Below are positions 52,269 through 57,908 of a DNA stretch of 64,000 nt, one piece after another. The DNA comes from Clostridia bacterium. GTDB lineage: Bacteria > Bacillota > Clostridia > Monoglobales > Monoglobaceae. The stretch's first letter is position 1. Every line of letters starts with the position of its first letter. The stretch spans positions 124,001-188,000 of the forward strand of contig JAGARO010000004.1 in assembly GCA_017622215.1 (NCBI GenBank), in the 5' to 3' direction. Made by a program: the position numbers and the translations under genes. The notes beneath the pieces are model-generated. The model was not told the DNA's origin. It did no database searches and worked only from the letters and a program-made list of their open reading frames with translations.

Positions 52269-52297
52269 AAGGACGGATGAAATCCGTCCTTTTTTTA
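52269..52297. terminator. Terminator between converging spo0A and the S-layer gene
   Basis: A 9-bp stem (AGGACGGAT / ATCCGTCCT) with a GAA loop is followed by seven T residues on the plus strand. Confidence 0.88.
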
Positions 52298-55180
52298 TTT
52301 CACAATAACAATATCTTCAACAGTATCCTTATAAAGCTTTAAGAATACACGAACCTCGTTGCCTTCTTCATAGAGTTCAATGTCAGCAGTGTCCACAACA
52401 GAAACCTTTGATGTGTTGCCACGGCTGTTGTAGAGATAAACGTTTGCGTTTCTGATTCCGTAGTTCTTGACTGTGCCGTTTACAGAGAGGTTAATTGAGT
52501 CGCTGAACTTTTTGGTAACCTTACCGTAAACAGTTCTGAGGTCTGTTACAACCTCTGTGTCAAATTCAGTTGTCTTGTCATCTACATCAAAGAGGACACG
52601 GATTTCGTCAGCCTCGCCCTTTGCGTTAGTGCCGTACTGGATGATGTCGCCTCGCTCAAGAGGGTCGCCGTCCTTTACAAAGACACCGAGAGCGTCAGCA
52701 TCAACAGTTACATTTTTACCCATTGAAAGACCGTAGAGTGAGTCGACGTCATCTTCGTTTTCGTTTTGAGTTTCAGCAATTTCGTCAACGATAACAATTG
52801 GATTTTCAGCGTTAGTAACCCCTGTTGAGCTTGTAACGATAATAACGCTTGCTGAATAGTCCTCGTTTAAGTCGTAAACTAAAATGTCATATTCGTTGTC
52901 GTTGGTAAACATAGCTTTTGTTCTTACTGCATACATATCTGTATCAGTATCAGCATCTGCAGGAATATCAAAGACGATTGTGTCGTCAGTTACAGAGATG
53001 TTTCCAAGCTTTGATGATGAACTTCTGTAAACAACATCATCTTCGTCTGCGTCAAATGTGAAGTCGTCGACAATAGGGTCGCCCTCTAAGTTGTTTGTAG
53101 CAGTAGTAATTTTGTTAATCTGTCCTGATGTGTTTGTTGTATAGGTGATAAGCTGTGGAATTACGTCGCCTTCGCCGTCGGAGAGTCTTGTAACAACATC
53201 AGCAGGTTCAAGACCTGAAGAATCTCCAAGCTTAATTTTGTTAGCAGAGCCAAATACCTTTACTTCTCCGTCAACAGTGTAGATTTTGAACTGTACATCG
53301 GAGTCAAGTGTGCCTGTTTCAGCAGCGTTAACAAGGTAACCGTATCTGCCTGTAGCAGTTAAAGAAACGTCAGCTTTAGCGTCCACCCCTGCAATTTTGC
53401 CATCGTGGTCAAGATAGAATCGACCTGAATCACCAACGTTTAAGGTGTAAGGATAGTTTGAAGCAACCTTGTAAACCTCGTCGCTCTTGTTGATTCGGAA
53501 GCCGTTAGCACTCTTTGAGGTAATTGTACCTAAGATGCTTTCAGTTGTAACGTATGCTCTGATTAAGCTTCTGTCCTCGCTTATAGTGTAGGAAATTACA
53601 TCCCATTCCTTAAGCTCATCAGTTGTAATTTCGTAGTTGTTCTTGATGAGAGTATAGTTTACACTTTCTTCTTCAGGGTCTAAAAGGATAGAACTGTTGT
53701 TGTATTTGTCGGTAATTCTGCCTGTAACTGTAGAAACAGTGTCAACAACAATGTTAGTAAACACGTTAGCGAATACAACGTCATATACGTTGTTTACATC
53801 TGTGTCCACAAGTCTTAAGCTTCCTCCGCTTTCCATCTGTGTTGTGAAGTCGTAGTCAGGGGAATATTTGCCGTTGTAGATAACGGAAGGCTCAGCCACG
53901 ATTGAAGCAGTCTTTGAGTTTTCCCCGTCGTTTGTCCAGTAGGTTATAATGAAGTCTTCTGTGTCCCCGCCTGTAATAGAAACAATATCCTCTGCGTTAA
54001 CGGATAAAGTTCTGTTTTTGCTTCCCTGAGGACGAACAGCAATAATTGTCTTTTCATCGTCGCTTGCGTCAACTCTTGCGTAGTAAACCACGTTAAAGCC
54101 TAAATATTCTTTAGCTGAGAGTGTAGAGTTCTGGAAAACAGTGTCCCCAATCTGTACCTTGTCTTCTGCTACGCCCTCTGAGGCGTTGAGAGATGTTTCG
54201 TCAGTTGCAAGAACCTGTCCATAGCCTTTTTCCACGTTAAGATAGTCGTATAAAAGTGTTCTGTCAACAGTTTCGTAGGATGGATTTGGACCGAATTCAG
54301 TCTGTTCCATCATATCAACTGTAAGTGCGTTAAATACAAGCTGTGCAATTTCTCCGCGTTTTGCAGGAGCGTTCATTGCGCCGTTTATGCCCTTTAAGAG
54401 CTGAAGTGAAGATGCAACAGTAACATATCCTCCCGGGTAACCGCCAATAGCTTCAGCCTTTGGCTGATAGCCTAAGGCACGGACAATAATTGTGATAGCT
54501 TCCTGAAGAAGCACGTTATCGTCAGGTCTGAAAGTGCCGATAGCATCACCTACAACCAAACCCTGTTGGTAACCGATGTTGATTGCACCGCTGGCCCAGT
54601 GAGTAGGGGCAACATCAGGGAAAATTGTAGAAACGCCTGAAGATACAACAATGTCTTCAAGTCCTAAAGTATAAACGGCAACCTTTGTCATTTCTGAACG
54701 GATAATGTTGTCGTTTGGTCTGAAATTACCTGTTCCGGCATCTCCCACCATAATGCCAAGAGCACCAAGAATTTCAGCAGCCTCTTCGTATTTTGTACCA
54801 ACGATATCATCGGCAATAGCCACAGCCTCGTCAGAGTAGCGTGAATCTACGCTTTCTTTTGTAATGTCTGTGTCAATCATACCGTTATTTTTTGTATTGT
54901 TTTCTTCTACAAGAGGTTCACCGTTGTCTGAAGTTCTGGTGAGAGCCCCTGCAGAAGTAGTGAGAGCCTCTGTATTATCGGGGCTTTCCGCAACAGGATA
55001 CAGCTCATAGCTTCCTGAAACCATATCAGGAGATGTGCCGTTTAAGTTGTTTCCGGTGTATGGCATAGAGTCAATGCTACCCGAGGTAGGGATAGAAAGA
55101 CCGTCCATAGCAAAAACCCCTGTTCCCAGAGCAAATATTAAAGAAAATATAAGCATAAGGGAAACAAATCTTTTACACAT
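52295..55180 (-). CDS. Large S-layer-homology (SLH) surface protein
   Basis: The protein is 961 residues from ATG 55180 behind AAGGAGG. The signal peptide (FVSLMLIFSLIFALGTGVFA) is followed by about 90 Ser/Thr/Asn-rich residues and three SLH domains (about 120-330; FRPNDNIIRSEMTK, FPDVAPTHWASGAI, FRPDDNVLLQEA). The remaining 600 residues are acidic beta-rich sequence without a recognised catalytic domain. SLH domains bind pyruvylated secondary cell-wall polymer. Size and codon bias (CTC-poor but GTT/ACA-rich) suit an abundant S-layer-type protein. Confidence 0.88.
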   Translation of the reverse strand: MCKRFVSLMLIFSLIFALGTGVFAMDGLSIPTSGSIDSMPYTGNNLNGTSPDMVSGSYELYPVAESPDNTEALTTSAGALTRTSDNGEPLVEENNTKNNGMIDTDITKESVDSRYSDEAVAIADDIVGTKYEEAAEILGALGIMVGDAGTGNFRPNDNIIRSEMTKVAVYTLGLEDIVVSSGVSTIFPDVAPTHWASGAINIGYQQGLVVGDAIGTFRPDDNVLLQEAITIIVRALGYQPKAEAIGGYPGGYVTVASSLQLLKGINGAMNAPAKRGEIAQLVFNALTVDMMEQTEFGPNPSYETVDRTLLYDYLNVEKGYGQVLATDETSLNASEGVAEDKVQIGDTVFQNSTLSAKEYLGFNVVYYARVDASDDEKTIIAVRPQGSKNRTLSVNAEDIVSITGGDTEDFIITYWTNDGENSKTASIVAEPSVIYNGKYSPDYDFTTQMESGGSLRLVDTDVNNVYDVVFANVFTNIVVDTVSTVTGRITDKYNNSSILLDPEEESVNYTLIKNNYEITTDELKEWDVISYTISEDRSLIRAYVTTESILGTITSKSANGFRINKSDEVYKVASNYPYTLNVGDSGRFYLDHDGKIAGVDAKADVSLTATGRYGYLVNAAETGTLDSDVQFKIYTVDGEVKVFGSANKIKLGDSSGLEPADVVTRLSDGEGDVIPQLITYTTNTSGQINKITTATNNLEGDPIVDDFTFDADEDDVVYRSSSSKLGNISVTDDTIVFDIPADADTDTDMYAVRTKAMFTNDNEYDILVYDLNEDYSASVIIVTSSTGVTNAENPIVIVDEIAETQNENEDDVDSLYGLSMGKNVTVDADALGVFVKDGDPLERGDIIQYGTNAKGEADEIRVLFDVDDKTTEFDTEVVTDLRTVYGKVTKKFSDSINLSVNGTVKNYGIRNANVYLYNSRGNTSKVSVVDTADIELYEEGNEVRVFLKLYKDTVEDIVIVK

Positions 55181-55405: not shown

Positions 55406-57019
55406 TTGAAAATGAAGAAAATTTTGTGTGGAATTCTTACAGTTTTAATGCTTTCTTCTGCTGCAATGGCAGCGGAGCTTAAGGATATTAAGGGACACTG
55501 GTCGGAAAGCTATGTAAACCGTATGGTAAATGAGGGCTATGTTTCAGGCTACGATGACGGAACCTTTAAGCCTGACAAATCAATTTCCCATATGGAAGCA
55601 GTTTTGCTTGCTTCAAGAATGCTTGGAGTAAATAAGAGTGAGAATGCTGTAACGGTGCATAATGCCCAGACTCAGTACGCAGTGGACCTTGCCAAGTATT
55701 CCATTTCCTATAAAAAAGAAGTAGAATATCTTTTGTATCTTGGCGTTCTCGATGTATCTGATTTAGAGGATTATATTGGAAATACAGTTGCAAATAAGCC
55801 TCTTAAAAGATATGAGGGTGCAATTTTAATCACAAAGCTTTTAGGAGCAGAGGACGAAATAAATACAGACCCGTCAATGGGTTTGCCTTATGGTGATATA
55901 GCTGAAATTCCTACGGAAGCAAGAGGCTATATAATGTATGTGAAAGAACAGGGCATAATGGAAGGTATGGGAAAGGACAGTTCAGGCAAGCCTAAGTTCT
56001 CCCCAAATACAGCCGTAACAAGAGGCCAGATGGCAAAGATTTTGTCTGGACTTATTGATATAATTGACCTTAAAATTTTAAAGGGTGAGGTTGCAGTTTC
56101 CGACGGCACAACCCTGGGATATACAATAAACGGCGTATATAAAAGCGTTGATTTATCCGAAAAGGTGCTTATAAAAGCGGATGCAGAGGATGTGCCTGCA
56201 AGTTCTCTTAAGGTTGGTGCAGGAGTAAAGATTATTCTTCTTAAGAATGAGCCTGTGCTGATTGAAAAGACAAGCGACCCTGAAAGTCTGGTGGACAGGG
56301 AAGAAAAACCTGAAGAAGAAAAGCCGAATAATAAGGTAAATACAGGGATAAGAGGCGTTGTAGATACAGTTGATGCTGAAACAGGAAGAATTACAATAAA
56401 TGACCCATTTGATAAGACACAGGTTTCAACATACAGAACAGCCGACGAGGTTGAGATTAAGAAAGATGGAAAATATTATTTCTTAACAGCGGTAAAAAAG
56501 GGAGATTATGTTGAAGTTAAAAATGTAAATGGAAGAGTTACTGAGATTGCAATTCTGGATAAAAATGAAACATTTTCAGGCACAGTCCAGAATATAAAGA
56601 ATATGAAGCCACAGTCAATAACTGTTGCAACAGACGGAAAAACAGAGTCTTTTGTAATCGACAGCGATGTTGAGCTTCTCAAGAACGGAAATCAGGCATT
56701 CCTTGCTGATGTGATTATCGGCGACGAGGCAACTGTGGAAATGGTTTACGGAGAGGTTAAAACAATCTACATAATCGGAGATATTGATAACTCAAGTGTA
56801 AACAGCGATTACACAGGAGAGATAACCGAAATAAGATTTAAGAAAAATGAAACAGTTATAGTTATGACGGTAAATGGCGCAACTATTGAATATGCCCTTG
56901 ATAAAAAGGCTGAAATTCATATTGACGGAGTTTTAAGTGATGAATATGACTTAAGAGTGGGACTTCAGGCAACAATCGAAATTTTATCAGGAAAAATTAT
57001 AAGCGTAATTATAAATTAA
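55406..57019 (+). CDS. S-layer-homology protein with OB-like repeats
   Basis: TTG 55406 is chosen because it is six bases after AGGAGG; ATG 55412 is the alternative. The product has 537 residues. A signal peptide (ILCGILTVLMLSSAAMAAE) is followed by three SLH domains (about 25-220; IKGHWSESYVNRMV, FKPDKSISHMEAVLL, FSPNTAVTRGQMAKIL). The C-terminal 310 residues contain about four beta-barrel-like units of 70-80 residues with GxVxxV starts. It is anchored to the cell wall; the role of the repeats is unknown. It is divergent from the large SLH gene and 13 bases upstream of desulfoferrodoxin. Confidence 0.87.
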   Translation: MKMKKILCGILTVLMLSSAAMAAELKDIKGHWSESYVNRMVNEGYVSGYDDGTFKPDKSISHMEAVLLASRMLGVNKSENAVTVHNAQTQYAVDLAKYSISYKKEVEYLLYLGVLDVSDLEDYIGNTVANKPLKRYEGAILITKLLGAEDEINTDPSMGLPYGDIAEIPTEARGYIMYVKEQGIMEGMGKDSSGKPKFSPNTAVTRGQMAKILSGLIDIIDLKILKGEVAVSDGTTLGYTINGVYKSVDLSEKVLIKADAEDVPASSLKVGAGVKIILLKNEPVLIEKTSDPESLVDREEKPEEEKPNNKVNTGIRGVVDTVDAETGRITINDPFDKTQVSTYRTADEVEIKKDGKYYFLTAVKKGDYVEVKNVNGRVTEIAILDKNETFSGTVQNIKNMKPQSITVATDGKTESFVIDSDVELLKNGNQAFLADVIIGDEATVEMVYGEVKTIYIIGDIDNSSVNSDYTGEITEIRFKKNETVIVMTVNGATIEYALDKKAEIHIDGVLSDEYDLRVGLQATIEILSGKIISVIIN

Positions 57020-57032
57020 GGAGGAAATGAAA

Positions 57033-57416
57033 ATGTGTGATAACAATAAGTTTTTTATTTGCGAACATTGCGGAAACTTAATCGGGATGATTGATGATAA
57101 GGGCGTTCCAATGATGTGTTGCGGACAGAAGATGACAAAGCTTGAGCCTGGCACAGTTGACGCAAGCTTAGAGAAGCACGTTCCTGTAGTGAATGTGGAC
57201 GGAGATGTTGTTAAGGTAGAAATCGGCGCAGTAGAGCACCCAATGACAGAGGAACATAGCATTTTGTGGGTATATCTCCAGACCGACAGAGGCGGTCAGC
57301 GTAAGTGCTTGGAGGTAGGCAAAGCCCCTTATGCAGAATTTGCCCTTAAGGACGAAAAGCCTGTTGCAGTATATGCCTACTGTAATCTCCACGGCCTCTG
57401 GAAAACAGAAATCTAA
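57033..57416 (+). CDS. Desulfoferrodoxin (superoxide reductase)
   Basis: The start is set at ATG 57033, eight bases after AAGGAGG; ATG 57027 is too close. The product has 127 residues. The N-terminal rubredoxin-like centre has FICEHCGN and MMCCGQ. The C-terminal superoxide-reductase centre has EKHVPV, EHPM and YCNLHG with the Fe-binding Cys and His. It reduces superoxide to peroxide with electrons that rubredoxin could supply. It is typical of anaerobes. It may be co-transcribed with the SLH gene, an odd pairing. Confidence 0.95.
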   Translation: MCDNNKFFICEHCGNLIGMIDDKGVPMMCCGQKMTKLEPGTVDASLEKHVPVVNVDGDVVKVEIGAVEHPMTEEHSILWVYLQTDRGGQRKCLEVGKAPYAEFALKDEKPVAVYAYCNLHGLWKTEI

Positions 57417-57418
57417 AC

Positions 57419-57446
57419 TAAAAAGCACCCGTCAGGGTGCTTTTTA
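57419..57446 (+). terminator. Intrinsic terminator after desulfoferrodoxin
   Basis: A 10-bp stem (AAAAGCACCC / GGGTGCTTTT) with a GTCA loop and T residues. Confidence 0.9.
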
Positions 57447-57452
57447 GTTATA

Positions 57453-57610
57453 TTCCAACATTGTTGGAGTGGTATTTTTACTTCGTAAAAGTGTTATTGC
57501 AAACTTTGTTTGCAGTTATATTATATTTGCCATTAAACTGTGCGAAGCACAATATCACTCGGCATAAGCCGAATAACACTGCGTAGCAATGTAACTTGCC
57601 GTAGGCAAAT
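57453..57610. repeat. Array of seven short hairpins with similar linkers
   Basis: In about 155 bases there are seven small inverted repeats with 3-4-nt loops: CCAAC-ATT-GTTGG (57455), TTTTAC-TTC-GTAAAA (57476), GCAAAC-TTT-GTTTGC (57499), TGTGC-GAA-GCACA (57539), TCGGC-ATAA-GCCGA (57559), a weaker TGC-GTA-GCA (57580) and TTGCC-GTA-GGCAA (57596). The last three linkers are alike: ATATCACT, ATAACACT and ATGTAACT. No gene is seen here. Confidence 0.65.
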
Positions 57611-57616
57611 AAAACT

Positions 57617-57657
57617 GAAAAAACCGCTAACTTTGTATCAAAGTTAACGGTTTTTTC
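57617..57657 (-). terminator. Terminator of the minus-strand tRNA-Glu
   Basis: A long stem (AAAAAACCG and TAACTTTG against CAAAGTTA and CGGTTTTTT, one mismatch) ends directly at the tRNA 3' end. The T tract faces the minus strand. Confidence 0.8.
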
Positions 57658-57732
57658 TGGTGACTCCTAGGGGATTCGAACCCCTGTAGCCGCCGTGAGA
57701 GGGCGGAGTCTTAACCACTTGACCAAGGAGCC
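57658..57732 (-). tRNA. tRNA-Glu (anticodon CTC)
   Basis: On the minus strand: acceptor GGCTCCT/AGGAGTC, anticodon loop CTCTCAC, T-loop GGTTCGAATCC and encoded CCA; 75 nt. Confidence 0.95.
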
Positions 57733-57738
57733 ATATTT

Positions 57739-57770
57739 AGAAAAAGCCCGTATTTCTACGGGCTTTTATT
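57739..57770 (-). terminator. Hairpin terminator between the two tRNAs
   Basis: The stem AAAAGCCCGTA / TACGGGCTTTT is followed on the minus strand by TCTAAATA. It may separate or process the two tRNA transcripts. Confidence 0.65.
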
Positions 57771-57771
57771 T

Positions 57772-57848
57772 TGGTAGCGGTAAACGGACTTGAACCATTG
57801 ACACTTCGGGTATGAACCGAATGCTCTAGCCAACTGAGCTATACCGCC
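57772..57848 (-). tRNA. Elongator tRNA-Met (anticodon CAT)
   Basis: On the minus strand: acceptor GGCGGTA/TACCGCT, D-loop AGTTGGC, anticodon loop TTCATAC and encoded CCA; 77 nt. Its body resembles B. subtilis elongator Met rather than the lysidine-modified Ile tRNA. Confidence 0.9.
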
Positions 57849-57879
57849 ATATTTAAGCCGAAGGAAATCGACAAGTGAT

Positions 57880-57908
57880 ATCTTATCACATAGGAAAAGA
57901 TATGTCAA
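57880..57908 (-). promoter_or_regulatory. Promoter of the tRNA-Met/Glu pair
   Basis: On the minus strand TTGACA (57908-57903), a 17-bp spacer and TAAGAT (57885-57880). Confidence 0.75.

Follow-up and report, generated by a model that had tools for sequence, protein, structure and literature searches.

The tandem mini-hairpin array found in a 64,000-nt stretch of a Clostridia genome (hereafter the window) is probably a solo, non-autonomous copy of a dispersed mobile element that resembles the intervening sequences (IVS) of 23S rRNA, is partnered by the 23S rRNA intervening-sequence protein (IVP; PF05635) and, in this instance, lies behind a tRNA terminator. Arrays of this kind are dispersed, their stems covary, they have an architecture of four linkers opposed to four inverted linkers (4+4), they are partnered with IVP genes, and copies occupy the 3' ends of genes or tRNAs. 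The element looks mobile, with a preference for gene ends.

The array of the window is composed of eight 9-nt linkers and seven mini-hairpins in the order L1-hL1-L2-hL2-L3-hL3-L4-centre-hC-R1-hR1-R2-hR2-R3-hR3-R4 (Table 1). The L linkers, four in all, read AGTNNTATT and the R linkers, likewise four, take the inverted form AATNNNACT, such that the halves of the array face each other and few exact copies of ATAACACT are found on any one strand. An initial annotation had described seven tandem hairpins with loops ATT, TTC, TTT, GAA, ATAA, GTA and GTA between two intrinsic terminators, which is confirmed; one terminator belongs to a desulfoferrodoxin gene and the other to a tRNA-Met/tRNA-Glu pair. 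The array that it placed at 57453-57610 is real, but those limits are wrong and the unit extends further on both sides; the pitch of about 22 nt given there is only approximate, the linker starts being 22, 22, 24, 37, 21, 16 and 20 nt apart; and the linkers do recur, but as eight copies of one 9-mer in two inverted sets of four, which had been missed. Its view that the array is neither a CRISPR nor an ordinary terminator is upheld, and CRISPR is rejected on the grounds that the longest direct repeats within 57200-57900 are 14 nt in two copies, that the palindromes are variable and that the array inverts at its centre. Two SLH-domain (S-layer homology) proteins are encoded near the array (52295-55180, minus strand; 55406-57019, plus strand).

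Table 1. Features of the mini-hairpin array and its surroundings, in window coordinates.
Feature	Position	Strand	Remark
Desulfoferrodoxin gene	57027-57416		Convergent
Terminator of the desulfoferrodoxin gene	57416-57449	+	3' arm overlaps linker L1
Whole 4+4 mini-hairpin array	57446-57616		Solo copy
Linker L1	57446-57454	-	AGTTATATT, inverted orientation
Hairpin hL1	57455-57467		CCAAC-ATT-GTTGG
Linker L2	57468-57476	-	AGTGGTATT
Hairpin hL2	57477-57489		TTTAC-TTC-GTAAA; minus-strand loop is GAA
Linker L3	57490-57498	-	AGTGTTATT
Hairpin hL3	57499-57513		GCAAAC-TTT-GTTTGC
Linker L4	57514-57522	-	AGTTATATT
Centre segment	57523-57539		TATTTGCC can pair with GGCAAATA (57604-57611), an alternative to hR3
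Hairpin hC	57540-57550		GTGC-GAA-GCAC
Gut-1 match (Rfam RF01706)	57547-57617	-	45.3 bits (gathering 50), E 4.3e-8
Linker R1	57551-57559	+	AATATCACT
Hairpin hR1	57560-57571		CGGC-ATAA-GCCG
Linker R2	57572-57580	+	AATAACACT
Hairpin hR2	57581-57587		GC-GTA-GC
Linker R3	57588-57596	+	AATGTAACT
Hairpin hR3	57597-57607		TGCC-GTA-GGCA
Linker R4	57608-57616	+	AATAAAACT
Long terminator hairpin	57617-57657	-	Between array and tRNA-Glu; place of hairpin H8 in other copies
tRNA-Glu gene	57658-57732	-	Transcribed towards the array
tRNA-Met	57772-57848	-	Upstream of tRNA-Glu

The RNA fold of 57400-57660, a stretch that includes both terminators, has a z-score of -9.2, with none of 200 shuffles folding as well; the array alone returns z = -5.5 as minus-strand RNA and z = -3.4 as plus-strand DNA. 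The 9-mer pattern of the linkers occurs 50 times across the 64-kb window, or about 0.13 times per 172 nt, and eight of these occurrences make up the array; among the ten densest 172-nt stretches listed for the window, none outside the array exceeds two. The count of AATAWSACT in the window is unexceptional (5 against 3.4 expected), and it is the clustering of the linkers, not the number of pattern matches, that is exceptional.

Similar arrays recur in the same genome, which is 1.18 Mb in 14 contigs. The linker-pair pattern matches 30 times in seven places, compared to 3 matches for a reversed control, and an eighth place (C7) found by a Gut-1 search brings the total to about eight copies; complete 4+4 arrays are seen at L042, L043, L044 (the window copy) and L047, and shortened or degenerate ones at L045, L048, L041 and L046. 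Among 60 relatives, 34 have some match to the pattern and eight have real arrays as judged by inspection of the matched strings (G000, the window genome, with G014, G016, G028, G034, G042, G056 and G058), and most sister genomes of the same genera have none. At least 116 array stretches are present among 84,980 species genomes, nearly all of them, by title, in metagenome-assembled genomes of uncultured Clostridia, mostly from ruminant and deer guts, although those from Chitinophagaceae (L125) and Campylobacteraceae (L144) may be chance. A further 15 stretches come from IMG/VR, of which at least six are simple tandem repeats by inspection (L214, L215, L219, L220, L223 and L225) and one, L213, is a full element. 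The repeat family suggested in the initial annotation is thus real.

A Gut-1 half was recognisable in 63 elements, and covariation was assessed in the 56 of these that could be fully parsed. Six of the seven hairpins covary across these 56 elements, their arms pairing at 95-100% compared to 69-96% when the 3' arms were shuffled between elements of equal length (z 6.8-12.7), while the linkers stay fixed between copies. The seventh hairpin, GC-NNN-GC, is nearly invariant and so carries no covariation signal. Pairing in the array hairpins is under selection, and the compensatory changes bear out the earlier proposal that pairing rather than stem sequence is conserved. The same annotation had offered, as a further possibility, an evolving palindromic filler, that is, a functionless sequence or chance cluster between two terminators. 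The stems do vary freely, and the linker motif taken alone is AT-rich and common; nonetheless, the fold z-scores, a fixed 4+4 architecture in many genera and linkers that track the IVP clade all weigh against filler, and the covarying arms together with inverted linker repeats upstream of IVP genes (see below) refute it, leaving this explanation with virtually no likelihood.

A second layer of pairing involves the centre segment, in which the 5' arm of the last hairpin recurs in 46 of the 56 elements (shuffled 32.0 ± 2.1, maximum 40) and which covaries with hR3 across copies. The 3' arm of that hairpin consequently has two possible partners, one in the local hairpin and one in a long-range stem, the latter being favoured in the predicted RNA fold of the window copy. 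The L and R linker sequences are complementary, though pairing across the halves is not a selected structure: a fishbone fold of this kind was rejected, as variable linker positions lack position-specific covariation, and all L-R linker pairs under both scoring schemes gave z-scores of -0.9 to 3.5 and no anti-diagonal.

The loops are likewise constrained. When the loops are read in the direction of AATNNNACT, GNA accounts for 142 of the 196 triloops and its reverse, TNC, for none; tetraloops are GNNA in 104 of 150 cases, and the loop-closing pair is C-G in 335 of 362. Loops of the C-GNA-G type are typical of unusually stable DNA mini-hairpins, d(GCGAAGC) being an example. Among the tetraloops, GNRA outnumbers GNYA by 82 to 22, an excess that speaks against a pure DNA reading, as RNA would also favour GNRA. 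The molecule d(GCGAAGC) is named in the portion of the literature consulted (PMC10527192). Loop orientation flips with the linker, and hence no single strand shows the same unit in both halves.

One half of the window array, read on the minus strand, aligns over the full length of the Gut-1 model (positions 1-77), with its three hairpins joined by conserved linkers. The match lies below the cut-off of the covariance model (Table 1), as do all 10 matches in the window's own genome, and lax Rfam thresholds on the window return many chance matches besides Gut-1 and the tRNAs. The cut-off is exceeded by seven matches in relatives, in five of 19 loci scanned, and, within the window's class, in 28 of 291 genomes; in one locus, L098, Gut-1 matches both halves on opposite strands. 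In the consulted part of its original description, Gut-1 is a probable non-coding RNA restricted to the human gut (PMC2864571). The Gut-1 model shares with the present arrays three tandem mini-hairpins and GUGAAAU-type linkers, and the window half matches the whole of it; however, the model covers only one half, about 77 nt, of what is here an inverted and dispersed 4+4 array that often precedes an IVP gene. Some arrays are longer than 4+4, with several Gut-1 matches in close tandem at G228:C68:3281-3622 and G228:C86:37244-37529.

Along the Gut-1 strand, a gene or tRNA is usually followed by the long hairpin H8 and then by the array. The upstream neighbour points into the element in 43 of the 55 cases that have a neighbour in reach, nine of these neighbours being tRNA genes. 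The upstream genes or tRNAs that read into the element on the Gut-1 strand, the excess of GNRA tetraloops and the original filing of Gut-1 would each suit a structured non-coding RNA that acts in 3' UTR stability, processing or regulation and was dispersed by duplication of the RNA gene. This account is nevertheless decidedly unlikely, because loops and linkers flip between the halves and leave no strand with a uniform unit, a terminator-like hairpin usually separates the gene from the array, and the promoter-like sequence of the IVP gene comes after the array.

The recurrent partner of the arrays is IVP. Genes of PF05635 (E about 1e-28) directly follow arrays L042, L117, L084, L151 and L176, the first being a full copy, array plus IVP gene, within the window genome; 2rld (five chains, E 5e-28) is a structurally characterised relative. 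No PF05635 open reading frame accompanies the window copy, which is a solo array; the same contig carries, at a distance of about 82 kb, an IVP gene with the linker of the window array (C1:98940-99290). Neither the sub-threshold Gut-1 half nor the coupling to PF05635 had been seen in the initial annotation, whose overall interpretation stands as far as repeat family and pairing are concerned. Across 291 genomes, Gut-1 matches occur in 41 and IVP in 71, with 30 in common (p = 7e-13; IVP at E <= 1e-12, the two 291-genome draws taken as the same set and relatedness ignored), that is, IVP is present in 30 of 41 Gut-1 genomes compared to 41 of 250 without a Gut-1 match. In at least 12 cases, as judged from coordinates compared by eye, a Gut-1 match precedes an IVP match by 109-173 nt and shares its strand; most of the other Gut-1 matches are solo.

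A survey of 142 IVP loci, giving 139 distinct proteins and 138 with enough upstream sequence, defined a linker as a 7-mer present in at least five copies over the two orientations together, at least two in each, within 320 nt before the gene. Inverted linker repeats were found upstream of 45 of the 138 genes, exactly 4+4 in 16 of them, compared to two of 133 downstream and none of 92 upstream of control open reading frames in the same loci; the remaining 93 have no array by this exact test, which misses degenerate arrays. The linkers vary and include AGTGATATT, AGCTAAAT, GCGATAT, TCGATAT, ATGATAT, GTGAAAT, ATGAAAT and ATGAATTG, among others. In a tree of 99 IVPs, with linker labels given to 48 by the 7-mer rule (the other 51 being left out of the count), the 12 linker types sort into as many IVP clades and require 11 changes, the minimum possible, compared to 29-37 in 200 shuffles, and restriction to counts of at least six (41 rows) again gave 11. 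Within an IVP clade, the linker is kept while the adjoining stems turn over. This agreement does not prove binding, since linked inheritance also predicts it, and it could come from plain linkage of array and gene as neighbours. The commonest linker types span several host families (AGTGATATT is found in seven genera of six families), which suggests horizontal spread of the elements. Among the 60 relatives, an IVP of the clade matching the window linker is present in three of the eight array-bearing genomes and in none of the other 52 (p = 0.0016); the five array-bearing genomes that lack it include G058, at 100% completeness.

The location of arrays before IVP genes also invites the reading of the array as an operator or RNA switch, in which IVP would bind the 4+4 linkers before its own promoter and repress itself, solo arrays being relics or decoys. 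Arrays placed 109-173 nt upstream of the IVP domain, before promoter-like sequence, and linkers that follow the IVP clade are in keeping with such a switch, yet most copies have no IVP behind them, and unrelated genes, promoters or terminators stand there instead; copies sit at the 3' ends of genes or tRNAs, and neither dispersal nor split terminators would be expected of an operator, which makes this reading distinctly improbable.

Several observations concern IVP genes and the sequences around arrays more generally. The second IVP gene of the window genome (G000:C12:2932-3234; L269, L376) has TCGATAT upstream in four copies plus one inverted, so that two linker clades coexist in this genome. 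The MESPLLNKS-type IVPs (L252, L253, L256, L267, L377 and others) have no arrays and lie behind another type of dispersed repeat, namely a long GAAACGACAA..TTGTCGTTTC hairpin that is frequently placed just after a tRNA gene. At L084:3670-3740 (G034:C72), a second H8 and first array unit, resembling a partial tandem copy, lie about 1.1 kb behind the IVP gene, past another open reading frame. A GGGTATGGGCTTTGCCC..GGCGAAACTGGCGATAA module is found behind arrays in both orientations (L114, L192, L198 and L203 versus L116, L127 and L209). A 25-nt segment like TGCATCTATATTGTTCTGCTTTACCA, with a CCA end before an A-rich terminator, is found near array or IVP ends (L085, L081, L178, L250, L256) and may be the remnant of a tRNA 3' end.

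Putative traces of insertion are seen at some gene ends. In split terminators, a single intrinsic terminator with a T-tract has one arm in the sequence before H8 and the other approximately 300-900 nt downstream. Such arms are found in seven of 36 testable non-tRNA copies (L106, L116, L127, L153, L169, L203 and L209), where 0.6 would be expected (p = 2e-6), and in one of 11 tRNA-type copies, the two types having been sorted by a simple CCA pattern, under which L171 at least was misassigned. The split terminators of L203 and L106 enclose a gene, and several of the ends carry inverted repeats of about 20 bp, by eye. In the other 29 of the 36 copies, the arms fail to exceed every control, so the split terminator would be one mode of insertion and not the rule; the window copy itself does not have complementary host terminator arms on its two sides. 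An earlier form of the test, with 20 controls and the tRNA-type copies mixed in, had nine of 57 copies beating all controls; the retest added the T-tract condition and dropped 10 of the 57, whose downstream sequence was too short. More distant 3' arms in L179, L198, L207, L193 and L213 failed the T-tract retest and were rejected, as were the split terminators of L107 and L128, which are convincing by eye but do not beat the controls.

Comparison with congeners bears on gain. In G034, an IVP element lies behind rplL (PF00542), and the corresponding region, at 85-87% identity, is without the element in all eight congeners, an absence that could in principle reflect loss. The solo copy at G034:C78 has no orthologous site in the congeners, where the search gave only an array 89% identical to it at a different location in G028. 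For the window copy, the one congener, G001, offers no clean empty site: its tRNA pair is followed by a terminator whose stem differs yet still pairs, and then by unrelated sequence with no array; synteny breaks at the tRNA terminator, and this locus cannot tell insertion from rearrangement.

An element that looks mobile might be moved by a machinery other than IVP. MITEs and REP/BIME repeats are short, dispersed, non-coding, palindromic and intergenic, and the arrays resemble them in all of these respects; they differ in that the array stems turn over while the linkers persist, and in that the usual transposases were not found. An unrelated transposase acting on single-stranded DNA hairpins, REP- or MITE-like, could move the array with IVP as passenger cargo, as other genes (NUDIX, AraC-type and some of unknown type) also follow arrays and in some clades the ends read as terminal inverted repeats of about 20 bp. 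Such a transposase is rather unlikely, given that IVP is the only recurrent partner seen, that twelve linker types follow its tree, and that the window genome has no match to the Y1 transposase PF01797 of REP/RAYT systems. The genes concerned include one for a NUDIX protein at L192:1-458 (minus strand) and, at L188:6650-7561 (minus strand), one for an AraC-type regulator whose Cass2 domain is described in Pfam as an integron-associated effector binding protein; both resemble the cargo of gene cassettes.

A close parallel for an IVP-partnered element is the 23S rRNA intervening sequence, which shares the PF05635 protein family and is inserted in a hairpin with inverted-repeat ends, as some of the array elements may be. 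The array elements differ in their location at mRNA or tRNA gene ends, their mini-hairpin arrays and their many solo copies; indeed, the window copy is not inside a 23S rRNA, but between a tRNA terminator and a protein-gene terminator. In the part of the source consulted, the Coxiella IVS has short repeats (heptamers) upstream of its open reading frame (PMC4990558), and PF05635 is said, again in a source consulted in part, to resemble Avd of diversity-generating retroelements (PMC10053308), from which the present elements differ in that no RVT_1 reverse transcriptase was found in the window genome. Within the literature searched, consulted in part, no link of PF05635 or Gut-1 with hairpin arrays was found.

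How IVP would recognise the linkers, how solo arrays would move in trans and by what chemistry are inferred as follows. A complete element would comprise a long terminator-like hairpin, the 4+4 mini-hairpin array, a promoter and the IVP gene. An IVP oligomer may recognise the repeated linkers, spaced by extruded mini-hairpins, and the complex, with host or further enzymes, would carry the element to new terminator-type hairpins, by analogy with the transfer proposed for 23S rRNA intervening sequences. An IVP that shares the linker of a solo array, such as the window copy, would move that array in trans. The element has no associated catalytic protein, and neither a Y1 transposase nor an RVT_1 reverse transcriptase was detected in the window genome.

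More tentatively, and with somewhat less than even likelihood, Gut-1 arrays could be the recognition and end modules of a large and undescribed class of IVP-driven elements that target terminator hairpins, spread between families of Clostridia and scatter solo arrays as they go, the IVP oligomer reading clade-specific linkers on extruded DNA mini-hairpins. If this is true, annotators have been listing the ends of mobile elements as non-coding RNA. If each IVP recognises the linker of its own clade, then the role of IVP and the spread of intervening sequences become testable in vitro with twelve natural pairs. Two orphans, the Gut-1 motif and the functionally uncharacterised IVP/S23 family, would be joined into one system with a testable pairing of protein and site, and an IVP-driven class would account for the Gut-1 motif as well as for the movement of rRNA intervening sequences.
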